Assembly (NCBI RefSeq): GCF_008000995.1
Contig: NZ_CP042828.1
Location: 2,170,001-2,234,000 of the forward strand
Direction: 5' to 3'
Origin: Ruania zhangjianzhongii
GTDB lineage: Bacteria; Actinomycetota; Actinomycetes; Actinomycetales; Beutenbergiaceae
DNA: 64,000 nucleotides
Part shown: one piece after another, positions 31,814 to 50,700 of the stretch
How positions within the stretch are numbered: the first letter of the stretch is position 1
How the letters are laid out: every line of letters starts with the position of its first letter
The notes under the pieces: model-generated
What the model was told of the DNA's origin: nothing
The model's input: the letters and a program-made list of their open reading frames with translations, nothing else
Databases searched by the model: none
Translations under genes and position numbers: made by a program

Positions 31814-31889
31814 CCAGCTGGCGAAAGTGTGGGGAGAACTACCCGGCGCGGTTCGTGCGTCATCGTCGGTGTTCCTCTAGCCTGCGGGT

Positions 31890-33077: not shown

Positions 33078-33097
33078 TGGCCTAGCGCGATCCGGAC

Positions 33098-33140: not shown

Positions 33141-33208
33141 GCATCCACGTGAACGGTGGTGACCAGCGCCCCGCGGGCCCGCGACTCCGCCCGCCCGCCC
33201 TCCACCTG

Positions 33209-33272
33209 CCGCGAGTGGCCAGTAGTGGTGGGTGTTTGGCGGCTGAGACCCACCACTACCGGCAACTCGCGG
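33209..33272. repeat. Long inverted repeat, 25-bp arms
   Basis: Arms 33209-33233 and 33248-33272 match at 23 of 25 positions around a 14-base loop. Both arms open with CCGCGAGT-GCC. It separates convergent transcription of the membrane-protein gene and the CAT tRNA. Confidence 0.8.
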
Positions 33273-33283
33273 ACGCCACACGG

Positions 33284-33357
33284 TGCCCCAGGTGGGGCTT
33301 GAACCCACGACCGACGGATTATGAGTCCGCTGCTCTGACCGGCTGAGCTACTGGGGC
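33284..33357 (-). tRNA. tRNA with CAT anticodon (Met elongator or Ile2)
   Basis: On the minus strand a 74-base cloverleaf: acceptor GCCCCAG paired with CTGGGGC, D arm with TAGCTCAG, anticodon loop CTCATAA, and T arm GGTTCAAGC. The 3' CCA is not encoded. CAT could be elongator Met or lysidine-modified Ile2; identity needs comparison with the other CAT tRNAs of the genome. Confidence 0.93.
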
Positions 33358-33443
33358 AGGACACAGGTGCGTCCGGCGCCGGCACGCGATCGCCCCGGCG
33401 CCACAATCGTAATGGGTGCCCGGGAGGGGTTACCGTCGTGTCC

Positions 33444-33947
33444 ATGCGTCGATCAGTGCGTCAGCTGCCCGAACCCGTCCGTGACCGGATCCCGCCCAAG
33501 GCGCGGGTGCTGGTCGTGCGCAAGCTCGGTGATGGCTCGTGGGCGGTGGTGACCACGGAGCGTCTCCTGGTGATGGGTGAGGAGCAGACGGTGCTCGACC
33601 GCCCCTGGGCCGAGGTGGACCGGGCCACGATGGACTCCGACACGGAGGAGCTCGCCGTCACCTGGGTGGACGGCAGCCCGCCGGACGTGCTGGCCGTGGG
33701 GGAGGACCCGGGCGTCTCCGACTTCACTTTCGCGGTCAAGGAGCGAGTGGACCACTCACTGGTGCACCTCGAGCTGGAGCAGCTGCCCAGCGGTGGAGTG
33801 CTCCGGGGCGCGATCCGGCGCAACCCGGACGGCAGCCTGTTCTCCCAGGTCACCATCTCTGGCGCACGCCGCGCGCCCGCCGACCTGGAGGCCCGTGCCA
33901 CCGAGCTGGAGGCGCGGGTCAGAAGTGTTGTCGGTCTCACTCCCTGA
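33444..33947 (+). CDS. Conserved actinobacterial protein, unknown function
   Basis: 167 aa, soluble, mixed alpha/beta with W-A-V-V-T-T-E-R-L-L-V and L-P-S-G-G-V-L-R-G-A-I-R-R type segments; resembles a short PH-like actinobacterial family often found beside tRNA genes, function unknown. The ATG at 33444 sits seven bases after TACCGT (33431-33436), favouring a leaderless start; a GTG at 33438 is the alternative. Confidence 0.7.
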   Translation: MRRSVRQLPEPVRDRIPPKARVLVVRKLGDGSWAVVTTERLLVMGEEQTVLDRPWAEVDRATMDSDTEELAVTWVDGSPPDVLAVGEDPGVSDFTFAVKERVDHSLVHLELEQLPSGGVLRGAIRRNPDGSLFSQVTISGARRAPADLEARATELEARVRSVVGLTP

Positions 33948-34002
33948 GGCCCGGGACGGCGGTCCGGAGCGCCGAGGATCGCTGGTAATGTTGTCGTCGC
34001 GA

Positions 34003-34075
<73 letters not shown>

Positions 34076-34078
34076 CCG

Positions 34079-34830
34079 AAACTGTTGATGTTCCGCCAAT
34101 CTGGAGAAAGTAGAACTGGACCATCGTGGTCCACGTTCACTTTTACTCCACGTTCTGAGCTGAGACGGTACGGCTGGGGTCAGGTCCAGCGGGTGTAGCG
34201 GTGGCTGGCTGACAGTCTCAGGCGACACGTAGGCGCTCTGACTGGTCCTGACGTTCCGATGCCCTAGTTTGGTTGGCATTCTCCGGTCCGATGCCCCGTC
34301 CAGGTGCATCAGAGTGGCCATCGACTTGCGGAAGATGTGCGAGCCGCGAACGTCCTCCAGTCGGGCGCTGTCCAGCAGGTCGCGGAAGTGCTTGTTCGTG
34401 TTCGAGGGATCGCGTAGGCCACGCTCTCCCTGCCCGTCAGCGCGCCGACCGGGGGCCGGAAGATTAAGCCGCGCTGGTTCGCCAGCAGGTGCTTTTGACG
34501 GTTCCGCAGACGATCCAACATCCACGGCGGGAGTACCAACGGTCGCGCGCCGTGCTTGGTGGAGGCGTTTCGGACTCTCGTCAGCCCTTCTCCTTTGATC
34601 CGGGTCACGGTCCAGCCGCCGATAGTGACCATGCCGTCCTGCCAGTTCACGTCTGACCAGCGCACAGCCGCCGCTTCCCCGACACGGACCCCGATACAGG
34701 CCATGAATGCCACCAGGTCGCCCATGTCGCGGGAGCGCGCGCGTCCCCCGGCCCCTTCGTTGTCCTAGTGCGGATGGGGTGGTTGTTATCGACGGCCTTC
34801 AGGAACGTCACGGAGGTGTTCACGCTGCCG
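34079..34830 (-). pseudogene. Degenerate tyrosine recombinase (integrase)
   Basis: On the minus strand the catalytic domain is spread over three frames. K-A-V-D-N-N-H-P-I-R-T is in one frame near 34750-34830; then M-G-D-L-V-A-F-M-A-C-I-G-V-R-V-G-E-A holds the first catalytic Arg; after a shift near 34420-34440 come H-I-F-R-K-S (HxxR), L-G-H-R-N-V and the A-Y-V tyrosine. At least two frameshifts and an upstream stop inactivate it. The last frame reads on into tRNA-Asn. Place and orientation fit the integrase that inserted the island. Confidence 0.85.
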
Positions 34831-34864
34831 CCGCGCTCGATCCCCGAGGAACCGACGTTGGCTA

Positions 34865-35125
34865 GTGCCGCTGGTCGACCTTGACCCGACTGCCCGGGCA
34901 GCGGCCGCGCAAGTTCTTGTCCACCATCTCCATGGATCCGGGGAGTGGACGGTCATCTCACTGGCGCGGGCGTTGGTCGACCTCGACCCGACGACCACAG
35001 CTGTGGCGATGCGAGCGCTCATGAACCACCTCTCAGATGCGCCGGTCTGGGCGAGAAGTGACAGCTGGGATGCGCTCGTGGCGTTGGTCGATCTCGCCAC
35101 CATTGAGACGGGTCGGGTTCAGTAG
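34865..35125 (+). pseudogene. Fragment of a helical-repeat protein
   Basis: An 86-codon frame with two related units, L-V-D-L-D-P-T-A-R-A-A-A-A-Q-V-L and L-V-D-L-D-P-T-T-T-A-V-A-M-R-A-L, each followed by H-L or N-H-L. This repeat style occurs in large actinobacterial repeat proteins. No start context or domains remain, and it overlaps the permease end, so it is read as a remnant; chance coding is possible. Confidence 0.4.
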
Positions 35126-35898
35126 TCGCCGGAGCCGCGTAGGTAGCGCTGGAGGACGGTGGAGCCGACCAGTTTCCAGATTCGGTCGGCGAGGAAGCCG
35201 AGGATCCCGAAGCAGAGGACTCCGACGAAGATGTGGTCGGTTCGGAAGTAGGTGCGGGCGTTCCAGACGAGGAATCCGATGCCTGAGCGGGCGGCGAGTG
35301 CTTCGGCGGCGACCACTACGAGGAAGGCGTTGGCCAGGGCCAGGCGCATGCCGGTGAAGATGCTGGGCATTGCGGATGGGATCACGACTTGTGCGAGTAC
35401 TTGGGCGCGGTTTGCGCCGAAGCAGCGGGCTGCGTCGATCTTGTCTGTGGGTACCGATGCGCCTCCGGCCGCTGTGCTGACCACGACGACGAAGGCGCAT
35501 GCCCAGGCGATCAGGTTGACTTTGGATTCTTCGCCGATGCCGAACCACAGCATGAACAGCGAGGTGAGTGCGATGGCGGGTACGAACCGGAAGAAGTGGA
35601 TGAACGGGTCGATGGCGGCCCGTACATACTTGGAGGCGCCCGCGAGGATGCCCACGGGGATGGCGATCGCGCAGCCCAGCAGCCAGCCGAGGAGGACGCG
35701 CTGGACGCTGATGCCGATGTTCTCCACGAGGCTGCCGTCGAGCAGCAGTTGCCAGGCCGACTGTATGACCGTGATGGGGCCTGGTAGGACGCTGGGATCC
35801 ATCCCGGAGGCTGCGAGCTCCCAGCCTCCGAGGACTGCGATGACGGCGACGATGGAGAGTGCGTATAGCCGGACGTTCTGGCCCTTCCGAGTCCTCAT
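35119..35898 (-). CDS. ABC permease, nitrate/sulfonate/sulfate-ester class
   Basis: 259 aa, six membrane segments, SsuC/TauC/AtsB type. The EAA-like loop is D-A-A-R-C-F-G-A-N followed by V-V-I-P-S-A-M-P. ATG overlaps the ATPase stop (ATGA). Last gene of a gntR-binding protein-ATPase-permease operon. Confidence 0.9.
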   Translation of the reverse strand: MRTRKGQNVRLYALSIVAVIAVLGGWELAASGMDPSVLPGPITVIQSAWQLLLDGSLVENIGISVQRVLLGWLLGCAIAIPVGILAGASKYVRAAIDPFIHFFRFVPAIALTSLFMLWFGIGEESKVNLIAWACAFVVVVSTAAGGASVPTDKIDAARCFGANRAQVLAQVVIPSAMPSIFTGMRLALANAFLVVVAAEALAARSGIGFLVWNARTYFRTDHIFVGVLCFGILGFLADRIWKLVGSTVLQRYLRGSGDY

Positions 35899-36713
35899 AC
35901 GGCACCTCGGTCCCACAGCACCTTCACCTCGGACGAGATGTTTTCGTCCACCTCACGCATGATGCGCACGAAGTCAGTATCGAATTCGTCGCGGGGGTAG
36001 GGCAGGTCGACGTTGAAGATGTTCTTGATTCCGGATTCGGGTGGCGCTGTCATCACGGCTATGCGTTGCCCTAGGAGCACCGCTTCTCGGACGTCGTGGG
36101 TGATGTAGAGGACGGTCTTACGTTCTTGTTGCCACAGTCGCACGAGTTCTTGTTGGAGGAATCGGCGGCTCTGGGCGTCCAGGGCCGCGAAGGGTTCGTC
36201 CATGAGGATCATCTCGGGCTGCACTGCGAGCACGCGAGCGATCTGTACGCGCTGTTTCATGCCGCCGGAGAGTTGGTCCGGGTAGCGGTCTGCCGCATCG
36301 GCCAGGCCCACCTTGTCCAAGTACTCCAACGCCAGGGCGCGGGCTTGACGGCGTCCGCGCCCGGACATACGCAGGGCAAACTCGACATTGCCACGCGCGG
36401 TGCGCCAGTCCATCAATGGTGAATCTACGGACTGGAAGACCACTGCGCGGTCCGGACCGGGGCCGCGCACTGCCTCGCCGCCGGCGCGTACGGTGCCTGC
36501 GGTCGGCATATGGGTACCGGCCACAAGCTTCAGCAACGTTGACTTCCCGCAACCACTGGGGCCTACTAGGACGAAGAATTCCCCTTCCTTGATCGTCAGA
36601 TCGAGATCTCTGAGGACCCACGTATGGTTGTCGAAGGAGATCCCGACTTGCTCCAGATCGATCGACTGGCTTGTCGGTAGAAGTGTCTCGCTCGGCTCAG
36701 GTCTGGTGCTCAT
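35895..36713 (-). CDS. ABC ATPase, nitrate/sulfonate/sulfate-ester class
   Basis: 272 aa, SsuB/TauB/AtsC type. Walker A G-P-S-G-C-G-K-S-T, signature L-S-G-G-M-K-Q-R, Walker B M-I-L-M-D-E-P-F-A-A-L-D, switch H in T-H-D-V-R-E-A. ATG overlaps the binding-protein stop. Confidence 0.94.
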   Translation of the reverse strand: MSTRPEPSETLLPTSQSIDLEQVGISFDNHTWVLRDLDLTIKEGEFFVLVGPSGCGKSTLLKLVAGTHMPTAGTVRAGGEAVRGPGPDRAVVFQSVDSPLMDWRTARGNVEFALRMSGRGRRQARALALEYLDKVGLADAADRYPDQLSGGMKQRVQIARVLAVQPEMILMDEPFAALDAQSRRFLQQELVRLWQQERKTVLYITHDVREAVLLGQRIAVMTAPPESGIKNIFNVDLPYPRDEFDTDFVRIMREVDENISSEVKVLWDRGAV

Positions 36714-37690
36714 TCGACCTCAGCTCCGTCGATTCCCTCGAGGATGGAGAGGTCGATGCTCCCCTCGATGTCCGTCTCGGCGGGGATCTCTCCATTGTCG
36801 ATCAGGAACTCTTGAATGTTCAGCAGATTCTCGCGATGTTCTTCGGTGAAGCGCAGCCCGGGATTGCTGATCTCGAGCGAGGGCTGCAGTACCGCAGCCT
36901 CGCCACCGGTTGCGGCCGCGGTGATCTCGGCGGCACCGGCCATGTCCTCGCTGATGTAGCCGTTGGCCGCCCCCAGGGCGGTCAACATCTGCTCGACCGT
37001 GTCAGGGTTCGCCTCGACGTAGTCCCGTGTGCTGAGCAAGTACATGCCCTGAAGCGCCAGCACCTCACTGTCATCACCTACCTGCGTGATGGTCTCGATG
37101 CCCTCCGCTTCGGGGATACCCACTCCGAAGATGAAGCCACCCTGGATCTCGCCTCCACGAAGGGCCCCCACCAACTCGTAGACTCCCGGGAACTCCACCT
37201 GCTCGACCGAGTCCTCAACGCCATAGGCTTCCAACCATCGCTGACTGGAGTATGCCTGCGCGGTACCCGGCAGGACCCCGATCGCTTGTCCCGCCAGATC
37301 TTCAGGACTGCTCAGGCTGCTGTCCATGTAGAACTGGTGGAACCCTGGTTCCGGGCTTGAGGTCGCGCCCAAGACCACCAAGCGCTCCGAGACTGAACTC
37401 ACGGCCGCGAAGTCCATCCCAAACGCAAAGTCCGCTTGACCTGTCGTCAAGGCCTGGATGCCCTCGACGCCGGTCTGGAAGATCGCAGGTTCGACCGCGA
37501 GACCCTGTTCCTGGAAGTAGCCTTGGTCCTCAGCCACGAACACAGGCGCGCCGATCGTGAACGAGTCCACGGCGATGGTCACCGACGCGCCATCGCCGCC
37601 AGACGGCGACGCGTCGCCGGTGCAGGCGGACAAAGCGAGGATGCTGGCGCAGGCAGCAGCGGCCAGAGCGCTCGCGCGAACTAGTCTCAT
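36710..37690 (-). CDS. ABC substrate-binding lipoprotein, SsuA/NMT1 type
   Basis: 326 aa. Lipobox L-S-A-C with Cys23. The mature protein follows the SsuA/TauA/AtsR plan: V-A-E-D-Q-G-Y-F-Q-E-Q-G-L near the N-terminus, A-L-T-T-G-Q-A-D-F-A-F, and L-A-G-Q-A-I-G-V. Pairing with a divergent cytoplasmic sulfatase suggests a sulfate ester or sulfonate as ligand, as in the Ats systems of pseudomonads; taurine, nitrate or a pyrimidine precursor cannot be excluded from sequence alone. Confidence 0.87.
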   Translation of the reverse strand: MRLVRASALAAAACASILALSACTGDASPSGGDGASVTIAVDSFTIGAPVFVAEDQGYFQEQGLAVEPAIFQTGVEGIQALTTGQADFAFGMDFAAVSSVSERLVVLGATSSPEPGFHQFYMDSSLSSPEDLAGQAIGVLPGTAQAYSSQRWLEAYGVEDSVEQVEFPGVYELVGALRGGEIQGGFIFGVGIPEAEGIETITQVGDDSEVLALQGMYLLSTRDYVEANPDTVEQMLTALGAANGYISEDMAGAAEITAAATGGEAAVLQPSLEISNPGLRFTEEHRENLLNIQEFLIDNGEIPAETDIEGSIDLSILEGIDGAEVE

Positions 37691-37738
37691 AGGTCACTCC
37701 AAGAGGTCAGGGTGGGGTTTGTGGAAGTGGGGGAGTGG

Positions 37739-38473
37739 TCAAAAACGCGGCGTGCGGACGATGTGCAGCGCCATGCCGTCGGTTCGGTAGTACAACTCGC
37801 TGTAGATCACTACATCGCCGGCATCGGTCAGGCTCACCTGCTTGGTGAGCAAGGTATGTGCTCCCGGGGCGAGGTTCAGATGATGAGCAACCGCAACTGG
37901 CGCACCCACAGCGGTGAGCTCGGCTTCCATCCGGACGACTCGCGTGCGTGCGTTTTGGTGCAGGAGAGTGAGCATGTGTTCGTCGATGTCTCGCAGCGGA
38001 GTGGGGTCGAACGCGTGACCGTTGATCACCGGAGGCAGCCATTCGATGAACGTGACCAAGGGCTCGCCGTCGGCGGTGAAGGTGCGCTCCACCCGCCAGA
38101 CCTCATCCTCCGGTTGAAGTTCCAGCGGGGTAGCCACGTGAGCAGGGCACGGCACGACCTCGATCGAGACCGCAGCGAGCCCGGCGGTCTTGCCAGCGGT
38201 TTCGATGGCTTCGCGCATGGGCGCGAAGTCAGTGAGGTTCTGCGCCAACGGGGTCGTTCGCTCTCGCACGAACGTGCCTACTCCCCATCGGCGGACGAGC
38301 AACCCCTCGTTCCACAGTTGCAGTAGCGCCTCGCGCAGGGTGTTTCGGCTGACGTCGAGGCTCGCCGCGAGATCCTTCTCCCCGGGCAAGCGCGCACCCG
38401 GGAGCAAGTCCTGGGTGATCATCTGCCGCAACTCTGCCGCTACGTCGTGCGGTAGGCGCCGTCGTGGTCGCAT
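37739..38473 (-). CDS. GntR/HutC-family regulator
   Basis: 244 aa. Winged helix at the N-terminus (L-P-G-E-K-D-L-A-A-S-L-D-V-S-R-N-T-L-R-E-A-L) and a UTRA ligand domain typical of HutC types (Q-P-E-D-E-V-W-R-V-E-R-T-F near 115-127). It starts the transporter operon (48 bases to the binding protein) and diverges from the sulfatase, with a dyad in between. GAGGAG lies before the ATG. Probably senses the imported ligand or its desulfated product. Confidence 0.9.
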   Translation of the reverse strand: MRPRRRLPHDVAAELRQMITQDLLPGARLPGEKDLAASLDVSRNTLREALLQLWNEGLLVRRWGVGTFVRERTTPLAQNLTDFAPMREAIETAGKTAGLAAVSIEVVPCPAHVATPLELQPEDEVWRVERTFTADGEPLVTFIEWLPPVINGHAFDPTPLRDIDEHMLTLLHQNARTRVVRMEAELTAVGAPVAVAHHLNLAPGAHTLLTKQVSLTDAGDVVIYSELYYRTDGMALHIVRTPRF

Positions 38474-38497
38474 ACAACGGTCTCCTCATTGAAGTCC

Positions 38498-38512
38498 AGA
38501 GGTCCAACCTCT
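38498..38512. promoter_or_regulatory. Dyad AGAGGT-CCA-ACCTCT, candidate GntR operator
   Basis: Six-base perfect arms around three bases, between the gntR start and the sulfatase start and just upstream of TATGCT/TAATGT -10-like boxes reading toward the sulfatase. Spacing suits a GntR dimer controlling both directions. Confidence 0.6.
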
Positions 38513-38598
38513 ATGCTTGTAATGTACTCGCAGACCGCCGGATCGTGTCAAGCACCGGCCTGTCGCCCCTGCCAACTCCCAGCACACGGAGGTGCTCC

Positions 38599-40011
38599 TT
38601 GCCCACCAACTTCGTCGTCATCTTCCTCGACGATCACGCCCAATGGGCGCTGAGCACCTACGGCAACAGCGAAGTTCGGACACCGAACCTGGACTATCTC
38701 GCCAACACCGGTACCCGAATGGACAACGCGTTCACGCCGACACCGGTGTGCTCGCCCAGCCGCGCCTGCTTCCTCAGTGGCAAGACAGCGTCACAGCACG
38801 GTGTGCATGACTATCTGGATGTCTGGGCGACCGGTGCGAATGAGCGCAACTGGATGGAGCGAGAGCGCACGCTGCCTGAGATCCTGCATGAGGCCGGCTA
38901 CACGACCGGCTTGTCCGGCAAGTGGCACCTCGGTCGCAACTTCGAACCAGCAGCCGGCTTCGACTACTGGCACGAGCTCGGCGACGTGAACTCCGATCCC
39001 ACACTGATCAGCCCCTGGCCGACTGCTGCTGCCGCGCCGCAAGCGCAGAATCCGCACAACGTGACCGACCGGGCAGTGGAGTTCCTCCGGGCTCGTGACT
39101 CCGCATCACCATTCTTCCTTTTCGTTGGCTACTACGGCACCCACTCGCCTTGGAGAGGACGCCCCGAACGGCTGGTCTCCGGCTACCGCCAGTGCTCCTT
39201 CGCCGACGTGCCCGTCGAACCAACCCACCCCTTCGGCCGACTCTCCTCCGAGTCGCTCATGCCAGAGACTCGCGACCGGCGCGAAGCACTCTCGCAGTAC
39301 TACGCCTCAGTGACTGCGACGGACGAGCAGGTAGGACGTCTGGTGGACGAACTGGACGCCCAGGGCGTGCGCGAGGACACCATGATCATCTACACCTCGG
39401 ATCACGGACTCAACCTGGGCCACCACGGAATCTGGGGCAAAGGCAACGGCACGAAGCCGTACAACATGGTGGATGAGTCAATACGCATCCCGCTCATCAT
39501 CAACCAGCCAGGAACCGTACTGCCCAGCCAGGTTCGCGGCGAGTACGTCACCCACTGTGACCTGTTCTCCACAGTGCTCGAGCACGCCGAAGTCGAAGCA
39601 CCCGAGGAGCAGGAACGCAGTCCCCGCCCAAGCCGCAGCTACCTGCCTCTCCTACGCGGCGGAAAAGCGCCGGACATGGAACAGATCGTGTTCGGCGAAT
39701 ACGGCGACCTGCGAATGGCACGCACCCCGGACCGCAAACTGCTCCTACGTCCAGACACCGGACGACACGAACTATTCGACCTGGACCGCGACCCACGCGA
39801 GACCCGAAACTTCTACAACACGCCAGGCTACGAGCAAGATGTTCAACAACTCACCACCCGGATCGAAGAGCACTTTGCCCGGCACAGCGACCCAGACACC
39901 GACGGCCTCACGGTGCGCCAACAGCCCTCCTTCAACCCCGAGGAGTACTGGAACCACCCCGACTACGACAACCTATGGTGGGAACGCAACGCCCAGCCGG
40001 CACGAGCCTGA
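38599..40011 (+). CDS. Sulfatase, S1 family, cytoplasmic
   Basis: 470 aa. C-S-P-S-R-A puts the formylglycine precursor at Cys51; D11-D12 and later Y-T-S-D-H-G and H-H-G-I-W-G-K-G are metal and sulfate ligands of the family, and G-K-W-H-L-G is present. No signal peptide. The start is TTG 38599 with GGAGG six bases upstream; the frame extends to 38464 but that part crosses the operator and promoter. Divergent from the ABC importer and GntR gene: import then intracellular desulfation is the likely scheme. The island encodes no formylglycine-generating enzyme. Confidence 0.92.
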   Translation: MPTNFVVIFLDDHAQWALSTYGNSEVRTPNLDYLANTGTRMDNAFTPTPVCSPSRACFLSGKTASQHGVHDYLDVWATGANERNWMERERTLPEILHEAGYTTGLSGKWHLGRNFEPAAGFDYWHELGDVNSDPTLISPWPTAAAAPQAQNPHNVTDRAVEFLRARDSASPFFLFVGYYGTHSPWRGRPERLVSGYRQCSFADVPVEPTHPFGRLSSESLMPETRDRREALSQYYASVTATDEQVGRLVDELDAQGVREDTMIIYTSDHGLNLGHHGIWGKGNGTKPYNMVDESIRIPLIINQPGTVLPSQVRGEYVTHCDLFSTVLEHAEVEAPEEQERSPRPSRSYLPLLRGGKAPDMEQIVFGEYGDLRMARTPDRKLLLRPDTGRHELFDLDRDPRETRNFYNTPGYEQDVQQLTTRIEEHFARHSDPDTDGLTVRQQPSFNPEEYWNHPDYDNLWWERNAQPARA

Positions 40012-40379
40012 CCACCAGCACGGTCCGAGACCTAGCCGAAGATCGGTGTCCACGGTCGGCTCCCGCAGGATCTCTGCGGCTGTGATTTGTCGATGGGGTT
40101 CGGGCGGATACGCACGTGGGTACCAATCGCGGACTCGTTGCCGCTGTATGCCGAGAGTGGCATGCCCGAGGACGCCTTCTCTGACTAGGCTCGTTTACCT
40201 GAGCGGAAACCGTCCCGTTCACTGGTTGACGCGTCTGCCCGACAATGCTGCGGGGAACTTCGCCGGCTACCGTGCCGACTGCGGTCTGTTAAATCGCGCG
40301 ATTCCTCGTAGGCACATTCGACCAGTGTCGCGGCGTCTGGCAGGCACGACTCTGGCTTTCACATCCTGAGGCCGAGGTC
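40012..40379. other. No recognisable gene
   Basis: All frames are short. A stretch near 40260-40370 may be the eroded core-binding part of the recombinase remnant that follows, but no motif proves it. Confidence 0.4.
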
Positions 40380-40860
40380 GCGACCCGCCACGAGGTCGCG
40401 ACGATGACGGCCGCGATTCCAGAGACTCTGCGGATCGCGGTGCCGTTGGCTGCCTGGTGTGCGATGTAGCCCGGTGAAGCGGTCGGGCTGGAGGGCCGCG
40501 ACATGGAGTATCTGGTTGATCCGACACGGGCGACATTGCGCGTGCGCCGCCAATGGAACACCAAGCCGCATGCGATTACCAACGGCCATTCGGGAGGCGA
40601 GCGTGCTTGGGCGACCAGCTAGGCAAGCGAGCCCAAGATGATGTGGACCGCCCGCCGGCCGGACTTGTGCAACCTTCGCCACCACCGCCACACCGCAGCC
40701 AGCACTTCGATGAGCCCTTGGAACGACGCGAATCTCAGGTCGGCGAGGTAACGCAGGACCGCTCGTCTTCAGTCGACGGGCGATGGCTGCCCTCAGCGAC
40801 TGACTGTGTACGACTCGACATCACGCGACGTTGTGGCCTCGTCCACTCCCTGAGGCACGC
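40380..40860 (+). pseudogene. Second tyrosine recombinase remnant
   Basis: Frame 40380-40622 reads H-E-V-A-T-M-T-A-A-I-P-E-T-L, L-A-A-W-C-A-M, a TAG stop, P-G-E-A-V-G-L and R-V-R-R-Q-W-N-T-K. In intact phage-type integrases the stop position is the catalytic Arg of the L-R-x-G-E box. Farther on, in another frame near 40655-40700, D-L-C-N-L-R-H-H-R-H-T resembles the HxxR box. It marks an older insertion inside the island. Confidence 0.7.
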
Positions 40861-40942
40861 GTAGGCGCCAGGGCGCGTTTCGATGTACGCGACACCGTCG
40901 ATGCGGCCCATATTTGGAACAGCGTTCAGTAGAGTGGTGCGC

Positions 40943-41746
40943 GTGGCTCATCAGCATCAGGAAAACAGCCTTGCGCCTGCCGTAGCTCGCGCCGTCCAGA
41001 TCTTGACGATTCTCGCCGAGGCCCAGGGTTCGCCACAGAGCCTTGCTGAGCTCGCTCGTGCACTCGGAGCAGCGAAGTCCTCGGTGTCGAATGTGTGCAC
41101 CGAGCTAGAGGAGGCGCGTCTGGTGCACCGTACGGAGCGTGGGTACAGCCTGGGGCGCCGCACGGTCGAGCTCGGGGGCTCTTACCTAGCCACGTTTGAT
41201 CAAGTTCGTGAGTTCTACAGGGTTGTGGCTGACTCAGAGGTTCTGCGCAACGAACTTGTCCAGATCGCGGTGCTCGACGGTGTGGAGGCCCTGTACCTCG
41301 CGCGTCATGAGGGGCGCGCCCCGCTACGACTAACGGCGAGTATCGGAGAGAAGCTTCCCGCATCGCTGTCGGCGGTGGGCGTGGCACTGCTTGCGCAGAT
41401 GGATCTACGAGAGGTGGACGCCCTCTATGAGGGGGTGGAGATGCCCCGGTTGACCGAGCGCTCGGCAAGTTCTCTAGACGCTCTGCACCGCAAGCTCGAG
41501 ATTACTCGAGAGCGAGGCTACTCCCTCGACAGGGGCGAGGTGTTCCCGAATGCGATCGGCGTCGCCGTCGCGGGCCCGACCCTCTGCCTTGGCGACGTGC
41601 CGTTCGCTCTCTGCGTTTCCACGTTCGACCGGTCCGGAGCGCCTGATCTCTCACCTGAGGCGCTGGAGCGGATCGTGGCAGCGCTCCACGAAACGGCGCG
41701 GCTGCTGTCCAATCCGATGACGGGGCGGGCATTGGCGGCCAGGTGA
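40943..41746 (+). CDS. IclR-family regulator
   Basis: 267 aa. N-terminal winged helix (A-V-Q-I-L-T-I-L-A-E-A ... S-L-A-E-L-A-R-A-L-G-A-A-K-S-S-V) and an IclR effector domain (Y-L-A-R-H-E-G, L-P-A-S-L-S-A-V-G, R-G-Y-S-L-D-R-G-E, G-V-A-V-A-G-P). Start taken at GTG 40943, seven bases after TAGAGT (40930-40935), a leaderless pattern; an ATG at 40883 would lengthen it by 20 residues. Just upstream of the HD/TRAP genes and likely their regulator. A TACTGAAYG motif occurs before its own gene (minus strand, near 40924-40932) and before the HD gene (41814-41822). Confidence 0.88.
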   Translation: MAHQHQENSLAPAVARAVQILTILAEAQGSPQSLAELARALGAAKSSVSNVCTELEEARLVHRTERGYSLGRRTVELGGSYLATFDQVREFYRVVADSEVLRNELVQIAVLDGVEALYLARHEGRAPLRLTASIGEKLPASLSAVGVALLAQMDLREVDALYEGVEMPRLTERSASSLDALHRKLEITRERGYSLDRGEVFPNAIGVAVAGPTLCLGDVPFALCVSTFDRSGAPDLSPEALERIVAALHETARLLSNPMTGRALAAR

Positions 41747-41886
41747 CTCGCCGGCGCTCCTGATCGACCTTCTTTGAGCGAGATTCCAGCTCCCGTCAGA
41801 CCTCTTGCGTCAGCATACTGAATGGCGTACAGTCCCTGGAACGGTCGAAGTTGCAGGGATGCGACTGGACCAGTACCGCGGTCGTT

Positions 41887-42561
41887 ATGTGGCGACGCAT
41901 GCGGACGAAGCGACTGATCGGCGTAGAGAGTGGGTATTCGAACGTGTCGGAGTTCGTGAAACATGACCTGGACCTCCCGGACGATGTCCGAAGGGGAGTG
42001 GTGGTATCGCTGCCGCTGATTGCAGAGATCGAAGACGCAGCGCTACGCAACAAGGTGATCGACGCCTGGGCACTCGCGCTTTGCGAGAATGGCTACGGCG
42101 CGGTAGAGGAATTGCCAGGCTCGGGGATGCCTGGGGCGCCAGAGGTGGGTGACCAGACCCACCACCTTCTTGGGGTTACCCGTATCGCTCTGGGAATCAA
42201 GGACTCGCTCGAGAAGACCTTGGACGAGCCGCTCGGCGTATCCCGAGATGTGGTCCTTGCGGCCGCGCTGTGTCACGACCTCGGCAAGCCGTTCGAGTAT
42301 GCGCCCGAGAACCGCCGGAGGTGGGATACGAATCCTGGAGCGTACGGTAGGCCATCGCTTCGGCACCCCACCTACGGCGCACACATTGCGATGGTGGTGG
42401 ACATGCCCGAGGAGGTCGTCAACACCTGCGGTTACCACTCGCCAGAAGGGCGCTTTATCGACCGAAGCCTAGCGGCAACGATCGTCCACTATGCGGACGA
42501 TGCGTACTGGTTCACTCTCGAGGTTGCCAAGAACTGGGAAACAAAGGTCCCGCGTCTCTGA
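41887..42561 (+). CDS. HD-domain protein, probable metal-dependent hydrolase or oxygenase
   Basis: 224 aa from ATG 41887. Metal ligands of an HD domain are visible: H-H-L-L-G (first His), C-H-D-L-G-K (the HD pair), R-H-P-T-Y-G-A-H, G-Y-H-S-P-E-G and H-Y-A-D-D (final Asp). The extra His residues suggest a two-metal site as in HD-GYP-like and mixed-valent diiron members. It precedes a TRAP importer by 28 bases to the first possible start, so it probably acts on the imported compound. The start is uncertain: no clear ribosome site before 41887 or Met at 41899. Confidence 0.8.
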   Translation: MWRRMRTKRLIGVESGYSNVSEFVKHDLDLPDDVRRGVVVSLPLIAEIEDAALRNKVIDAWALALCENGYGAVEELPGSGMPGAPEVGDQTHHLLGVTRIALGIKDSLEKTLDEPLGVSRDVVLAAALCHDLGKPFEYAPENRRRWDTNPGAYGRPSLRHPTYGAHIAMVVDMPEEVVNTCGYHSPEGRFIDRSLAATIVHYADDAYWFTLEVAKNWETKVPRL

Positions 42562-42615
42562 AGGAGCCTTCAGAGACTCATTCGTACGGTGCTGTACAGA
42601 AGGGAATTGCTGAAA

Positions 42616-43644
42616 ATGGTTCAAAGAAGTTCCGTCATGCCAAGGATGGCAGCTGCACTGATGGTCGGCAGTGTGGTCGCGGTGTTGAGCGCCTGCGGTG
42701 GTGACTCGTCCGGTAACGGCGAGGTCGAGTTGGTGATCGCTGGCACGCTGCCCGCTAATACGGCAATGATCCAGGGCGCTGACCGCGTCGCCGAGCAAGT
42801 AGCGCAAGACTCCGACGGTTCCCTGACAGTCGAGGTCTACCCAGACGGTCAGCTAGGCGGCGAACCGGAGATGCTTGAAGCACTGAGCACCGGCACTGTC
42901 GATGTCGCCATGGTCGGCGCTCCGCTGATCGCAACGCACTGCCCGAGTCTGGGCATGACCTCGCTCCCATACGTGGTCCAGGGCGACACACCGGAGGAGC
43001 AATACGCAAACCTGCAGCGCATCGTTGAAACGGAGCAGCACGCCGACGCCATCGAGGAGTGTGCCGCGGCCGCGGGGTTTCGAGTGATCGACGACAGCTG
43101 GTGGTACGGGAACCGAGAGCTTACATCGAACATCGCTATTCGCACTCCCGAGGACCTGGCTGGACTTCGGGTCCGCACTCCTGAAGGCGCCCTGCACTCC
43201 GAACCGTTTGCCGCGCTCGGCGCAGAGCCGGTCCCGATGGCCCAGTCGGAGGTGTACACCGCGCTGGAAACCGGCGTGATCGATGCCCAAGAGAATCCGT
43301 TTGCGACGACGTTCAAGCACGCGTTCTACGAGGTGCAGAGCTACCTCAGCCTCACGGGGCTCATGACTCACAATCAGGTGATCGTCATGTCCGAGGAGCG
43401 GTTCTCATCGCTGTCCGCGGAACAGCAGGAGGCCCTGTCCACCGCAGTCAGCGATGCGGGAGCTTGGCAGTCGGAGCAGCAGATGGCAGAGAACGCTGAA
43501 CTGCGCGACACACTCGAGTCTGAGGGCATGGAGGTAATCGAGCCCGATCTTGATGCCTTCCGTGCGGCGACTGAGGAGTTCGTGCAGGCCTACTTTGATG
43601 AGCACGGTCTGGACCTAGACGCGCTCCGATCGGTGCAACAGTGA
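42616..43644 (+). CDS. dctP: TRAP transporter solute-binding protein
   Basis: 342 aa. Lipobox L-S-A-C, Cys27, so membrane-anchored as usual in Gram-positives. DctP-type features: Y-P-D-G-Q-L-G-G-E-P-E-M-L, L-A-G-L-R-V-R-T-P-E, the conserved Arg that binds the ligand carboxylate in that stretch, and G-V-I-D-A-Q-E-N-P. ATG 42616 has AGAAGGGA ten bases upstream; an earlier GTG at 42589 lacks one. Ligand probably an organic acid. Confidence 0.93.
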   Translation: MVQRSSVMPRMAAALMVGSVVAVLSACGGDSSGNGEVELVIAGTLPANTAMIQGADRVAEQVAQDSDGSLTVEVYPDGQLGGEPEMLEALSTGTVDVAMVGAPLIATHCPSLGMTSLPYVVQGDTPEEQYANLQRIVETEQHADAIEECAAAAGFRVIDDSWWYGNRELTSNIAIRTPEDLAGLRVRTPEGALHSEPFAALGAEPVPMAQSEVYTALETGVIDAQENPFATTFKHAFYEVQSYLSLTGLMTHNQVIVMSEERFSSLSAEQQEALSTAVSDAGAWQSEQQMAENAELRDTLESEGMEVIEPDLDAFRAATEEFVQAYFDEHGLDLDALRSVQQ

Positions 43645-43708
43645 CCTGGCCGGCCCGGCATCCCGTCCCGATCCGAAATGAGGATCGGACACCGACGAGG
43701 GAGCCGGT

Positions 43709-44230
43709 GTGAGCGCTGCGTTGGAAGCGGGTGACAAGATCCTCAACTCGGCGCTTCGCGTTGCTGCGGTGGTCTTGGTGCTGGGGATGCTCACCGTGGT
43801 CTGTGGCTCGGTCGCTTTGCGAGCCTTGGGCACCGTGGTATTCGGAGCAGACGAACTCACCCGACTCCTGCTGACGTGGACGGTGGCAGTCGGCGTGGTG
43901 CTCGGCGCCCGGGAGGGAGGTCACCTAGCCATCGAGGCTGTGACCGATCGGCTAACCGGGTGGACTAGGCGTTCAGTTCTTGGACTGGGAGCGATCGTTT
44001 CGATCGGCTTCCTCCTCATCCTCACCTGGACAGGCTTGCAGTACGCGATCGCTGGATTCACCCGGGGCGCCCCGACTCCGTCTCTGGGCATCTCGACCGG
44101 CTGGGCCGCATTGTCTTGGCCAGTCTGCGGCTTCTTGACAATGCTGTACGTGCTACGCGACCTGGTCGCCGGCGTCACCGTTGGCCCGCCGGACCCACCG
44201 GACGATGCAGAGGTATCCGGACTGGTATGA
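43709..44230 (+). CDS. dctQ: TRAP transporter small permease
   Basis: 173 aa with four membrane segments; D-E-L-T-R-L-L-L-T-W and E-G-G-H-L-A-I-E are the DctQ signatures. GTG start after GAGGGAG. Confidence 0.92.
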   Translation: MSAALEAGDKILNSALRVAAVVLVLGMLTVVCGSVALRALGTVVFGADELTRLLLTWTVAVGVVLGAREGGHLAIEAVTDRLTGWTRRSVLGLGAIVSIGFLLILTWTGLQYAIAGFTRGAPTPSLGISTGWAALSWPVCGFLTMLYVLRDLVAGVTVGPPDPPDDAEVSGLV

Positions 44231-44270
44231 GAAACGAAAACTTCTGGATGGTTGTCGTCGGGTGGTCCCG

Positions 44271-45560
44271 ATGACTGAAGTGGTTGTGTACCTAGTTGCG
44301 ACCTTCGTGATCCTTCTAGCGGTCGGCGTGCCTATCGGTTATGTCCTGGGCATCGCAGGAGTGGGATACTTCCTACTGTTCCAGGACTTCGGGCCAGCAA
44401 TGCAGACTGTGCCCCAGGTCATGCTCTCGTCGACTAGCTCCTTCTCGCTGGCCGCGATCCCGTTCTTCATCTTCGTCGGCCAGCTGATGTCTGAGACCGG
44501 CGTATCGGACCGGATTGTCATCTTCGCACGTGCTGTGATCGGCCACGTCCGAGGTGGCCTTGCGATGGTGGCCCTGTTCTCCAGCCTGCTGGTAGCAGCC
44601 TTCTCCGGCTCGTCCGTGGCAAATGCCGTGGGCACCGGGTCGGTGACGATTCCGGCGATGATCAGAGCGAAGTACCCTCGCCCGTTCGCGGCCGCTGTCG
44701 AGGCGACCTCAAGCTCGATGGGCACAGTCGTGCCACCGAGCGTTGCAATGATCGTCTATGCGTCGATCACCGGAGTCAGCGTCAAGGCGCTGTTCATCGC
44801 CGGCTATCTACCCGCGGCGCTCTACACCATCGGCGTCCTCATTGTGATCGGCGTGGTGGCGCGACGAGCTGGCTTCGGTGTCGACGAGAAGTCCTCCTTC
44901 CGAACGCGGCTGCGCACTTTCCGTGGTGCCATCGGTCCTATCCTCATCCCAGTTGTCGTCATGGGCGGCATCCTCGCCGGAGTGATGACTGCGACCGAGG
45001 CCGGTGCCGTTGCTGGCCTGTACACCCTCGTCTTGGCAGGTGTTGCCTACCGGTCGCTGAGCTGGAAGAAGTTGGTTCGCGTGTTGGTCGCCACGGCACG
45101 GACGACCGGAGTCGTGATGCTCATCGTCGCCGCCGCCGGGATCGTAGGATGGATCCTGGCGCGTGAGCGCGTACCTGCGAGCGTCGCCGAACTCGCGTTG
45201 GGAACCTTCGAGAGTCAACTCGGGATCCTGCTCATGCTGATCGTGATGCTGGTTCTTCTGGGGACCTTCATGGAAACCTTGTCAGCGCTGGCGATTACCG
45301 CTCCAATCATCGTCGGGATCGGCACCACGGCCGGGATCGATCCCCTGCTTCTCGGTCTCGTCACCGTGCTATCGCTGTCGATCGGGATGATCACGCCCCC
45401 AGTGGGTGTCGTGCTGTTCGTCACCACGAAGATCGCCGAGACACGGATTGAGGCCTCATCCAGGGCACTGATCCCGTTTCTGGCAGTGCTCATCATCGGA
45501 ACAGCGCTGATCGCAATCTTCCCAGACGCGGCACTCTGGCTCCCACGCCAATTCGAGTAG
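44271..45560 (+). CDS. dctM: TRAP transporter large permease
   Basis: 429 aa, the usual DctM length, with about eleven hydrophobic segments; A-I-P-F-F-I-F-V-G, S-G-S-S-V-A-N-A-V-G-T-G and T-P-P-V-G are family motifs. The start is ATG 44271, after the dctQ stop; an upstream overlapping start would add a hydrophilic tail. Last gene before a strong hairpin. Confidence 0.94.
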   Translation: MTEVVVYLVATFVILLAVGVPIGYVLGIAGVGYFLLFQDFGPAMQTVPQVMLSSTSSFSLAAIPFFIFVGQLMSETGVSDRIVIFARAVIGHVRGGLAMVALFSSLLVAAFSGSSVANAVGTGSVTIPAMIRAKYPRPFAAAVEATSSSMGTVVPPSVAMIVYASITGVSVKALFIAGYLPAALYTIGVLIVIGVVARRAGFGVDEKSSFRTRLRTFRGAIGPILIPVVVMGGILAGVMTATEAGAVAGLYTLVLAGVAYRSLSWKKLVRVLVATARTTGVVMLIVAAAGIVGWILARERVPASVAELALGTFESQLGILLMLIVMLVLLGTFMETLSALAITAPIIVGIGTTAGIDPLLLGLVTVLSLSIGMITPPVGVVLFVTTKIAETRIEASSRALIPFLAVLIIGTALIAIFPDAALWLPRQFE

Positions 45561-45620
45561 CCGTCGAAACTCCCTGGGGAAGGGAGAGTGCTGATCGGGT
45601 TGGGGCTCGATGCAGCACAA

Positions 45621-45660
45621 GGAACCGTGCCTCGCCAGCGAACTGGCGAGGCACGGTTCC
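45621..45660 (+). terminator. 18-bp perfect hairpin
   Basis: Arms 45621-45638 (GGAACCGTGCCTCGCCAG) and 45643-45660 are exact complements around CGAA. It lies 60 bases after dctM and ends the TRAP operon, inside the island. The rest of 45561-45902 holds only this, attR and a second hairpin. Confidence 0.88.
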
Positions 45661-45827
45661 ACTATCCGAAGAACTAGTAGGCCCCCGGCGCCGGGCCACT
45701 CCATGCACCAGAGACGCTGCGGGCGCCAGAGTTCACCTTCTCCACGGTGCGCAACGACCTCCGTGTGGAGTGCCAGGCCAGAGGGCATAAGTCGCGACAT
45801 CCTTAGTCATGGACCGAAGCGAGCACG

Positions 45828-45852
45828 ACTGGTTTGAGTCCAGTCGGGGAGC
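45828..45852 (+). repeat. attR (copy of the tRNA-Asn 3' end)
   Basis: ACTGGTTTGAGTCCAGTCGG and the following GGAGC repeat the tRNA end with one C-to-T change and one deleted G. It is the far boundary of the island; flanking PGRP and mutase genes have core-like composition. Confidence 0.85.
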
Positions 45853-45856
45853 GAGC

Positions 45857-45886
45857 AGGTCCGGAATCTGGGGAGATTTCGGACCT
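45857..45886. terminator. 13-bp hairpin beside attR
   Basis: AGGTCCGGAATCT and AGATTTCGGACCT pair at 12 of 13 positions around GGGG. It follows the minus-strand PGRP gene. Before integration it would have lain directly after tRNA-Asn, so it may be the displaced tRNA terminator. Confidence 0.7.
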
Positions 45887-45902
45887 TGTGCTTTGCCCGC
45901 GT

Positions 45903-47651
45903 TCACCACACGTCGAGCGTGTACAGGTACGAGGTGCGGCGAGGTACGTCGCTGGGGGAGTCCACCCCACGAGAGAGCAGTCGGTAGCGAGTCCGCCGCG
46001 AGGGACTGACCGTCGTGGTCGCCTTGCCACGGCTGACCTGGATGTCCCGCACCGTGCGCCAGTTCCCGTTCGTGAGCTGGCGCTGCAGCCGCACCTCGCC
46101 GGTCACCCCACCCTTCGGGCTGATCCAGCCGATGTAGAGCGTGGTGTTCTTACCCGCTGGACCTTCCTTCGGCCCGCTGAGGTCCAGGATGGTGCGCCCG
46201 TTCGAGCCCACGCAGCGCAGCCGGTGCCAGTTGCTGGTCCCGTTTGGGTGGGTCACGTCGATCTGCTGGCTCCGCGCCCGGATCGCCCGCACCCGCCAGT
46301 AGGCGGTGTCCCGCGGCCCGACCACGGTCGAACCCTTCCCGCTGGTGACCGTGATGTCGCGGATGTTCTGCCAACTGCCGTTCGCCCGCCGGCGCTGCAG
46401 CCGCACCGTGCCGTTCACCGGGACGCCGTTGTACTCCCAAAGCACGTGCAGCCGGGTACCGGTCGAGGCCACCGCACCACCGGGCCCCGCCAGCCGCAGC
46501 TTCACCCGGTTCTTCAGCCGGTTCTGGGTGCCGCTGCGGATCGTGCTGAGCCGGGCATAGAGGTAACGGCCCGGGCAGGCGGTGGACTTGGTGTCCCGGT
46601 GCCCGGAGATCACCGGCAGCCGGCGGGCACCGTCGTTCGTGTAGTTCGCCGTGTTGTAGGCGTAGTGCACGCCGTGCACGTCGAACTTCCAGGCGAACAG
46701 GTCCGCGTACGAGGTCAGCACTCGGCTCGGGATGTTGCGCTCGTGGAAGTTGCCGATCGCCGCCACCCCGAAGGACTGCGAGTTGTAGGACTTCGTGTGC
46801 GCGGCGATCACCGGTCGGTGCACACCGCCGTAGGCGCCTTCCCAGATCCGGCCGAACCGGTCGATGAGGAAGTTGTACCCGATGTCGTAGAAGTCCCGGC
46901 TGAGCACGTGGTAGCGGTAGATCGACCGGATGATGCCGCGCACCTCACCGGAGGAGTAGGAGTTCGCTGTGGCGGTGTGGTGCACGAACCCGCCGCGGAT
47001 GTCCCCATAGGCGACCCCGTCCTGGTTCTGCCGCAGTGACTCGTCGGCGCCCCAGTTCGCTCGCGAGGCCATCGTCGGCTTGTCGATGATCCAGCGCCCG
47101 GGCACCCCGGCAGTCGTGGCCGTCTCCGGTTCCGCGGCGCTGAGCGCCGAACGCGGCATCGGTTCCGGGTGGATCAGGGTCAGGGACAGATCCTCGGGCA
47201 CGTCCCCGGAGACCGAGACCTCCACCGCATCGGCGCCCCGGGTCCACAGCGGTTCCGTGCCGGCCACGTCCGCCCGACCAGCGGTGTGCTCGTCCGGAGG
47301 AAGCGCAGACCATGGTGACCACACGCCGTCGGTGCGCAGGCGCACGTACGGCTCCGGGACGCCGTCACCGGTCCAGGTGAGCGCCACCAGCTCGAACGTG
47401 GCCGTCTCCCACGCCGCGGTACGTCCACCTCCGACGTCGCCGACCGGGATCCTGCTCACGCCCTGGTCGTCCGGACCCTCCGGTGTGTTCAGCGGGGCCG
47501 GATCGGCATCATCGGAGGGCGCCGCCCACGCACCGATCGCCGGTCCCAGCGCCAGCCCGGTCCCGGCCATCGCCACCAGTGCTGACCTCCGGCTCAGACC
47601 GGTGCGTTCGCCCGTTGTGCTGATGTCGTCATTGCGCATGTCTGCCATCAT
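45903..47651 (-). CDS. Tat-exported PGRP/amidase-type protein
   Basis: 582 aa. Signal with S-R-R-S-A-L-V and a hydrophobic core ending A-W-A-A-P, Tat-like. A region of about 130 residues of unknown fold comes first; then a PGRP/Amidase_2 domain (about 190-340) with zinc ligands in F-V-H-H-T and H-R-D-T-K-S-T-A-C-P-G, which should cleave the MurNAc-L-Ala bond of peptidoglycan. Two related C-terminal units (R-L-Q-R-R-R-A-N-G-S-W and R-L-Q-R-Q-L-T-N-G-N-W) are likely beta-sandwich wall-binding repeats. ATG 47651 follows GGGAG. Confidence 0.88.
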   Translation of the reverse strand: MMADMRNDDISTTGERTGLSRRSALVAMAGTGLALGPAIGAWAAPSDDADPAPLNTPEGPDDQGVSRIPVGDVGGGRTAAWETATFELVALTWTGDGVPEPYVRLRTDGVWSPWSALPPDEHTAGRADVAGTEPLWTRGADAVEVSVSGDVPEDLSLTLIHPEPMPRSALSAAEPETATTAGVPGRWIIDKPTMASRANWGADESLRQNQDGVAYGDIRGGFVHHTATANSYSSGEVRGIIRSIYRYHVLSRDFYDIGYNFLIDRFGRIWEGAYGGVHRPVIAAHTKSYNSQSFGVAAIGNFHERNIPSRVLTSYADLFAWKFDVHGVHYAYNTANYTNDGARRLPVISGHRDTKSTACPGRYLYARLSTIRSGTQNRLKNRVKLRLAGPGGAVASTGTRLHVLWEYNGVPVNGTVRLQRRRANGSWQNIRDITVTSGKGSTVVGPRDTAYWRVRAIRARSQQIDVTHPNGTSNWHRLRCVGSNGRTILDLSGPKEGPAGKNTTLYIGWISPKGGVTGEVRLQRQLTNGNWRTVRDIQVSRGKATTTVSPSRRTRYRLLSRGVDSPSDVPRRTSYLYTLDVW

Positions 47652-47786
47652 CGTCTCCCGTGACCTGATCGTGACCACACCGTAGTGCCTGCCGATGCTG
47701 CGCGCCGGGAGCAGCCACCCGCGTGCCCGGTGCCCGGTTACGATCGAGGTGGGCCGCGCGTCGATGCGCGGGAGAAGGAGGGCTTC

Positions 47787-50700
47787 GTGACCACCACCAT
47801 CGGCCACACCCCCGCCGGCGAACCAGAGCCGGCTACTACCGTCCCGCTGCGGTTCGTGACCGCGGCCAGCCTGTTCGACGGGCACGACGCCGCGATCACC
47901 GTGATGCGCCGGATCATCCAGGCTCAGGGCGCTGAGGTGATCCACCTGGGCCACGACCGCTCGGTCCGGGAGGTGGTCCGCGCCGCACTGCAGGAAGACG
48001 CCGACGGCGTGGCGATCTCCTCCTACCAGGGCGGCCACCTGGAGTACTTCCGCTACCTGGTGGACTCCCTCGCGGAGGCCGGGGCCGGCCACATCCGGGT
48101 GTTCGGCGGCGGTGGCGGCACGATCACCCACGAGGAGATCGCGGAGCTGACAGAGGCCGGGGTCGAGCGCCTCTACCACCCGGACGACGGCCTCAAGCTC
48201 GGTCTGACCGGCATGATCGAGGACCTCGTCACCCGCACTCAGGCACCGCGCCGGCCGGCCGCTACACCCGGGAGGCTCCCGGACCGGGAGGACGATGCCG
48301 GTGTGGGCCGGCTGCTCAGCGCCATCGAGGATGGTCTTCTCACCGACGACGGCGCAGCCCGGCTGGGCCTGTCGGCTCACCCAGGCGCCACTCGCCCGGG
48401 CGGAGCCGCCCCGGTGGTCGGGATCACCGGCACCGGCGGGTCCGGCAAGTCCTCGGTGATCGACGAGCTGGTGCTGCGGTTCCTCACCGCCTTTCCCGAG
48501 CTGCGGATCGGCGTGCTCGCCGTGGACCCGACCCGCCGGCGCACCGGGGGTGCACTGCTCGGCGACCGGATCCGGATGAACGCACTTCGCTCGGACCGGG
48601 TGTACTTCAGGTCGATGGCCACCCGGCGCCAGGACGTGAGCGTGAGCGAGGTGCTCGCCGAGTCGATTCGCGCGCTACAGGGCTGCGGGTTCGACCTGGT
48701 GATCGTGGAGACCGCCGGGATCGGCCAGTCGGACTCGGCGGTGGTGGAGCTGGTGGACGTGCCGGTCTACGTGATGACCAGTGAGTACGGCGCCGCCAGC
48801 CAGCTGGAGAAGATCGACATGATCGACTTCGCCGAGCTGGTGATCCTGAACAAGTTCGACCGCCGCGGCGGCGAGGACGCGCTGCGGGACGTGCGCAAGC
48901 AGTGGCGCCGCAACCGGTTGGCGTTCGACACCCCGGACGAGGAGGTGCCGGTCTATCCCACCGTCGCCAGCCACTTCCATGACGACGGCCTGACCCGCGC
49001 GTTCGAGGCCCTGCTGGCCCGGCTCGGCGACGGCTGGCAGCCCGAGCAGCCGCTCACCGGGGGAGCAGGAGCCGGTGGCAGCCTCATCCCCGGGTGCAGA
49101 GTGCGCTACCTGGCCGAGATCGCCGAACAGGGCCAGGACCTCACCCGCAGGGTCGAGACCGAAGCCGACGCCGCCGAGGCGGCACAGCGGTACTGGACCA
49201 GCCTGCGTGACCTGGCCGACCCGGCGCTCCCGGAACCGCTCGAGCCCTACCCGACCTCCGCCGTCGAGAGCGAGGAGACGCTGGTCCGGCTACGCACGCT
49301 GTACGCCGACGCACTGGCCCGCCTGAGCGAGGACTCTCTGGAGCTCTTGCGCGCCTGGCCGCAGCGCCGCGCCGCGCTCACCGCCACCCGCGGCACGTAC
49401 CAGGTGCGCGGCCGGGAGATCAGCGTGGAGAACTACAGCACCTCGCTGTCCGGCACGGCACTGCCACGGGTGGCGCCACCGCAGTTCCGATCCTGGGGTG
49501 ACCTGCTGCGGTTCCTGCACCAGGAGAACACCCCCGGGGCCTTCCCCTACACCGCCGGCGTGTATCCGTATCGTCGACAGACCGAGGACCCGACCCGGAT
49601 GTTCGCCGGCGAGGGACCGCCGGAGCGCACCAACCGCCGGTTCCACTACCTCGCCGCCGGGCAGGGCGTGGCTCGGCTGTCCACCGCGTTCGACTCGGTC
49701 ACCCTGTACGGCCAGGACCCCGCCACCCGCCCGGACGTGTACGGAAAGGTCGGCAACTCCGGCGTGAGCGTGCCGACGCTGGACGATATGAAGCGGCTGT
49801 ACTCCGGATTCGACCTGTGCGCACCGGCGACCTCGGTGTCGATGACCATCAACGGGCCGGCGCCGATCATCCTGGCGATGTTCTTCCACACCGCGATCGA
49901 CCAGCAGGTGGAGAAGCACCTGCGCGCCGACCCGCAGCGGTGGCAGGCGGCTCAGCAGAAGATCGGCGAGATACTCGGTGGCCGGCAGCAGCCGGTCTAC
50001 CGCGGTGAGCTGCCCGACGGCAACGACGGGCTGGGCCTCGGCCTGCTCGGGGTGACCGGGGCCGAGGTGACCGACCCGCAGACCTACGCCCGGATCGCCG
50101 CCGAGACCCTGGCCGCAGTGCGCGGCACGGTGCAGGCGGACATCCTCAAGGAAGACCAGGCGCAGAACACCTGCATCTTCGGCACCGAGTTCGCGCTGCG
50201 GATGATGGGGGACATCCAGCAGTACTTCATCGACGCCCGCGTGCGGAACTTCTACTCGGTGTCCATCTCCGGCTACCACATCGCCGAGGCCGGAGCGAAC
50301 CCGATCACCCAGCTCGCCTTCACCCTGGCCAACGGGTTCACGATCGTGGAGTACTACCTGGCCCGCGGGATGGCCATCGACGACGTCGCCCCGCACCTGT
50401 CCTTCTTCTTCTCCAACGGGATGGACCCGGAGTACGCGGTGATCGGTCGGGTGGCCCGGCGGATATGGGCTCGGGCGATGCGCGACCGGTATGGCGCGAG
50501 CCCGCGGGGGCAGATGCTGAAGTATCACATCCAGACCTCCGGGCGGTCGCTACACGCTCAGGAGATCGAGTTCAACGACATCCGTACGACGTTGCAGGCG
50601 CTGTATGCGAGCTTCGACGCCTGCAACAGCCTGCACACCAACGCCTATGACGAGGCGGTCACCACCCCCACTGAGGAGTCCGTGCGCCGAGCGGTGGCGA

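Follow-up and report, generated by a model that had tools for sequence, protein, structure and literature searches.

The 64,000-nucleotide stretch of the Ruania zhangjianzhongii genome analyzed here (hereafter, the window) contains a tRNA-Asn gene followed by remnants of two recombinases, the genes for two importers and, 11.8 kb away, a second, degenerate copy of the tRNA 3' end. The features of this locus, in the order of their coordinates and with the source of each assignment, are the following.

34003..34077, plus strand: intact tRNA-Asn (GTT) gene, the 3' end of which is the proximal repeat copy (ARAGORN)
34051..34076, plus strand: attachment repeat, tRNA-side copy (repeat search)
34226..34740, minus strand: remnant A, the catalytic half of a tyrosine recombinase in two frames, 34740-34450 and 34432-34226 (Pfam, PHROGs, relatives)
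35119..35916, minus strand: ABC permease, PF00528 (Pfam)
35895..36713, minus strand: ABC ATPase, of the nitrate/taurine/sulfonate type by its best matches, all of them below cut-off (Pfam, NCBIfam)
36710..37690, minus strand: ABC substrate-binding protein, NMT1, SsuA-like below cut-off (Pfam, NCBIfam)
37739..38473, minus strand: GntR/UTRA regulator (Pfam)
38464..40011, plus strand: sulfatase, PF00884 (Pfam)
40365..40565, plus strand: remnant B, part of a second tyrosine recombinase, interrupted by an in-frame stop (comparison with relatives)
40883..41746, plus strand: IclR regulator (Pfam)
41851..42561, plus strand: HD-domain protein (Pfam, NCBIfam, alignment)
42589..43644, plus strand: TRAP substrate-binding protein DctP (Pfam, NCBIfam)
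43709..44230, plus strand: TRAP small permease DctQ (Pfam)
44181..45560, plus strand: TRAP large permease DctM (Pfam, NCBIfam)
45828..45852, plus strand: attachment repeat, displaced host copy, degenerate (repeat search, alignment with the nearest genus-mate)
45903..48380, minus strand: flanking host amidase ORF, the true start of which lies well inside (domain search)

The tRNA-Asn gene is also recognized by the Rfam model RF00005 (34003-34075, 70.8 bits). A search of the same genome with the tRNA region as the query (E<=0.001) yielded six matches, and because the other five are tRNA-Arg (three), tRNA-Lys and tRNA-Thr genes, the tRNA-Asn gene appears, from this similarity search, to be present in a single copy. 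The last 26 nucleotides of this gene are found again at 45828-45852, differing by one substitution and one deletion, exactly as had been predicted from the sequence, downstream of the tRNA and in the same orientation. The ungapped core of the repeat (34051-34072 and 45828-45849) is identical at 21 of 22 positions (95%) with a spacing of 11,777, and reading through one deleted base extends it to 34051-34076 and 45828-45852. Among 300 sequences generated by a first-order Markov model of 34101-46500, no match to the 22-mer exceeded 17/22, a value reached once. The original prediction described both attachment sites as degenerate; this holds for the distal copy but not for the tRNA-side copy, which is intact.

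The boundaries of the block, previously defined by the repeats alone, are now delineated by two additional lines of evidence, a GC change-point and an empty site in a related genome. When 124 kb of the genome were searched for a change in GC content, the left edge being restricted to 30000-40000 and the right edge to 40000-50000, the best segment was 33980-45940, and the edges within 3 log units of the best span 33820-34080 and 45600-46280. The GC content of the island is 0.630 compared to 0.665-0.707 in 355 windows of the same length outside it; at a finer scale, the twelve 1-kb bins of 34001-46000 have values of 0.615-0.639, and the remaining 52 bins 0.648-0.751 across the window. The composition-corrected tetranucleotide distance of the island is 0.178, above the maximum of 0.164 for 46 outside windows (mean 0.118), each of which was left out of its own reference. 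The compositional shift noticed originally is thus borne out by GC bins, change-point and tetranucleotide distance alike, and the composition differs from that of the flanks, with the edges of the difference falling at the repeats. Between DctM and the displaced copy, 3' of the DctM gene, there is a perfect 18-bp inverted repeat with a 4-nt loop (45621-45660) that resembles a terminator hairpin.

The locus was compared across eight genomes of the genus including the present one, that is, with seven genus-mates, among which G004 is the nearest. In G004, the left flank aligns up to position 710 of the locus (L043), where tRNA-Asn ends, and the alignment of the right flank begins at position 685, inside the tRNA, and continues beyond the join at 83-88% identity, such that tRNA-Asn runs directly into the DNA found here to the right of 45828. 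The empty site that the original prediction had named as a check, with tRNA-Asn joined to the DNA right of 45852, therefore exists. An inverted repeat that follows the tRNA-Asn gene of G004 has a counterpart here, recognized by eye, to the right of the displaced copy. An ungapped comparison of the 60 nt just outside the join gives 0.52 on the host side versus 0.43 on the island side; because of indels, even the host side scores weakly here, and the case is carried by the long alignment. With the island as the query, no match was detected in the loci of the seven genus-mates (6.0-11.5 kb fetched per locus; blastn, E<=1e-5), so no relative with the same genes and without the repeats was found among these loci.

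The other genus-mates do not reproduce the join of G004: a near-base-precise empty site is seen in only one of the seven, which counts against the reading as an inserted island. In G002, four genes lie between tRNA-Asn and the amidase, encoding a BrkB family protein, a DUF4235 protein, an iron-containing redox enzyme and a CDGSH protein (L044, 3277-6202); a second tRNA end was not found at that locus, and no PF00589 match is listed on that contig. In G001, G003, G005 and G006, IcmF lies approximately 0.2-1.4 kb from tRNA-Asn, and the amidase domain is not between them. The 8-kb stretch fetched from G007 contains tRNA-Asn and its left neighbors, and IcmF was not seen in it. In the present genome, the listed start of the amidase ORF (45903-48380) is too early, as the first part of this ORF overlaps IcmF on the opposite strand.

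Remnant A lies on the minus strand and points at tRNA-Asn. Its single-frame pieces score 21.7 and 19.1 bits against PF00589 (cut-off 27.1), and the match to a PHROG integrase family is at 1.2e-11. A full-length relative in G003 (451 aa, PF00589 at 73 bits) aligns to 34740-34450 at 37% identity and to 34432-34226 at 30%, in both cases within its C-terminal catalytic half. The N-terminal half was not found by homology: the G003 protein and the N-terminal piece of a relative in G010, a member of another genus, both lacked matches (E<=10) on the minus strand beyond 34740, as far as the region extends. The recombinase had originally been described as broken over three frames against the tRNA; it is indeed broken and adjacent, but homology supports two frames. 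The third frame (34649-34952) was rejected, having no family match at E<=1 in Pfam or PHROGs.

A piece of remnant A is matched in four of 24 family genomes, the present one included. The relative in G010, itself split over two frames in the assembly (L075, G010:C31, 4989-6456), ends 78 bases from tRNA-Asn in the same relative orientation, and the one in G003 has a tRNA-Arg gene nearby. Because the relatives are distant (at most 44% identity) and the one in G003 is located by tRNA-Arg, the site specificity of remnant A rests on G010 and on the position of the remnant itself. Fourteen phage records, phages of Arthrobacter and Rhodococcus among them, match a remnant A piece, ten of these being listed at 35-39% identity. 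We also considered whether the site is a busy integration hotspot and rejected this notion: PF00589 occurs within 3 kb of the gene next to tRNA-Asn in only two of the 24 family genomes, the present one (the remnant, below cut-off) and G010, as compared by eye, with adjacency to tRNA-Asn checked in the eight genomes of the genus and in G010.

Taken as a whole, the locus is a decayed, tRNA-anchored genomic island of approximately 11.8 kb that carries foreign genes for two nutrient importers, with an intact tRNA, a displaced fragment, an integrase remnant and an empty site in G004. It is very likely that the element was inserted at tRNA-Asn by a tyrosine integrase and that the integrase and the displaced copy decayed later. 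Under this scenario, a mobile element with the integrase now represented by remnant A would have had a version of the tRNA-Asn 3' end in its attachment site and would have recombined this site with the chromosomal gene; the copy brought by the element would have restored the tRNA, and the original host 3' end, together with the downstream DNA, would have been displaced by 11.8 kb to its present place at 45828. The tRNA-side copy, being part of an apparently single-copy tRNA gene, would have been kept intact; the displaced copy and the integrase, free of such selection, could decay. Since both have decayed, the island probably can no longer leave on its own, and because a search of this genome with a remnant A piece detected nothing further at E<=0.001, we infer, as did the original prediction, that it is fixed. 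A donor or an intact copy of the island was not found, and a plasmid megablast search with the whole island yielded no match.

This arrangement closely resembles the islands collected in Islander, which, as characterized in the description of that database (PMC4383910), have an intact tDNA at one end, a displaced 3' fragment at the other and a tyrosine integrase near the tDNA, and the length distribution of which peaks at 13.6 kbp. The present island, at 11.8 kb, is not far from this peak, and it likewise has tyrosine-integrase sequence beside the tDNA and a displaced fragment in the same orientation. "Damaged" fragments, in which a small deletion lies 3 bp upstream of the discriminator, are also provided for in that description (PMC4383910); the deletion observed here is in a run of G 2-6 bases upstream of the discriminator, its place within the run being ambiguous. 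In contrast, the Islander filter, as described there, demands an intact integrase reading frame, and none is left here. Because the PF00589 match falls below the cut-off (21.7 bits) and is split over frames, we file the locus as a decayed island and not as a database-grade Islander entry. The action of a tyrosine integrase at a tRNA 3' end is also shared with the actinomycete integrative and conjugative elements, at least as these are presented in PMC3218068; in contrast to such elements, no replication, transfer or conjugation genes were detected when ten island ORFs were searched with the Pfam models.

The second recombinase calls for a separate account. Over 67 residues, remnant B shares 54% identity with a 416-aa integrase encoded elsewhere in the same genome, and the assignment of the remnant comes from such relatives, its pieces having no integrase match in Pfam or PHROGs. 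Among its 19 other matches, four were examined, and the respective stretches contain a tRNA-Ser gene (three cases) or a tRNA-Ala gene (one). Remnant B thus derives from another type of integrase, one that need not have moved the island. Hence, two dead recombinases are present, as originally proposed, but the second is a scrap of about 67 residues of a different kind. Two integrases related to remnant B, with open frames of approximately 416 aa, are found in this genome in stretches that each contain a tRNA-Ser gene (L073 and L074) and perhaps belong to other integrated elements.

The location of remnant B between the two importer units, together with its different type and the tRNA genes near the relatives examined, raises the possibility that the island is composite, with an ABC-sulfatase unit that came with recombinase A and a TRAP unit that came with recombinase B, arriving in turn, the internal repeat being no longer visible. 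A third copy of the tRNA end was not found inside the island by a fuzzy search, and the tetranucleotide difference between the two halves (0.217) does not exceed that between pairs of host chunks (mean 0.242, sd 0.035); against this background, a composite origin appears rather unlikely. Far less probable is an ancestral block that was cleanly excised in G004: excision would produce the same join, which would then be a deletion, but the loci of all seven genus-mates are devoid of island matches, the ABC binding protein and the HD protein found no match in the seven genomes under the thresholds applied, and the composition of the island is foreign. The notion of a coincidence, with ordinary recombination as the route of the cargo and a fortuitous tRNA-end repeat, found no support and can be practically dismissed, given the gap between the best chance match and the one observed, and the coincidence of the composition edges and the empty-site join with the repeats.

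Turning to the cargo, domain searches bear out the two small-molecule uptake modules that had been predicted, one of the ABC type with a GntR/UTRA regulator and one of the TRAP type with an IclR regulator. The gene divergent from the ABC unit encodes a protein with a PF00884 domain (E 8.8e-54) that begins only at residue 49, and for this reason the start of the ORF is probably annotated too early. The protein contains a Cys-x-Pro-Ser-Arg motif, which we take to be the mark of type I sulfatases, and so, by domain and motif, is predicted to be an enzyme of this type. Matches at E<=1e-60 were detected in 18 of 396 genomes of the order, the present one included, the best elsewhere being 43% identical (at most three candidates scored per genome among the matches listed). 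The ABC binding protein is far more isolated: at E<=1e-20, it was detected in the present genome alone, both among 396 genomes of the order and among 396 genomes of the phylum, a set in which the order is itself represented (five candidates scored per genome among the matches listed). A scan of named genomes, by a method that detects close relatives only, returned one distant match (27% identity) in a Woesearchaeota MAG, and the sole plasmid relative, from Paenibacillus, is 23% identical. On that plasmid (L087, approximately 4410-8458), the gene for the relative directly follows an aryl-sulfate sulfotransferase gene and lies beside its own ATPase and permease genes. For the three ABC parts, models of aliphatic sulfonate, taurine and nitrate importers rank among the best NCBIfam matches, but every one of these matches is below the curated cut-off, so that a substrate is not assigned, and the matches of the sulfatase are below cut-off as well. 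The idea that the ABC unit imports a sulfate ester cleaved by the sulfatase has about an even chance of being correct, with the divergent sulfatase gene and the sulfotransferase gene on the plasmid in its favor.

In the TRAP unit, DctP and DctM pass the respective NCBIfam cut-offs (dctP and dctM), and the best match of DctP elsewhere among the 24 family genomes is 39% identical. The HD-domain protein encoded next to DctP is rare in the order, where it was found at E<=1e-15 in two of 396 genomes, the present one and G022, which has two copies; it matches 91 plasmid records. Nine loci outside the window were read, which were picked from match listings and are not a random sample; in seven, a gene for a relative of this protein lies directly beside an importer gene. 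The importers are an oligopeptide-type ABC system (L070), amino-acid-type ABC systems (L089, and L085 and L086, the same locus in two strains) and MFS transporters (L088, L090 and L092); the two loci where the HD gene is not beside an importer (L091 and L093) are archaeal and the most distant, at 28-29% identity. Ten aligned HD sequences retain H105, H142, D143, K146, H172 and H196, a pattern that fits the metal site of HD domains. No solved structure was matched by sequence at E<=0.1, and a literature search on the context of this protein returned no matching paper that contained "HD domain". We tentatively suggest that the HD protein could represent a family of uptake-coupled enzymes that has been repeatedly paired with unrelated importers, TRAP, two kinds of ABC and MFS; were that so, it would act on, or sense, a freshly imported compound. 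The HD protein might act on an organic or sugar acid taken up by the TRAP unit, a proposal with less than an even chance of being right.

Because the sister species retains an empty site, the gain of the two uptake units can be dated to the time after the split of the present lineage from this sequenced species. Events of this kind are well known, and the island is a cleanly delimited, clear case of acquisition at a tRNA site that is otherwise ordinary. The one part of it that may open a new question is the association of the HD protein with importers.
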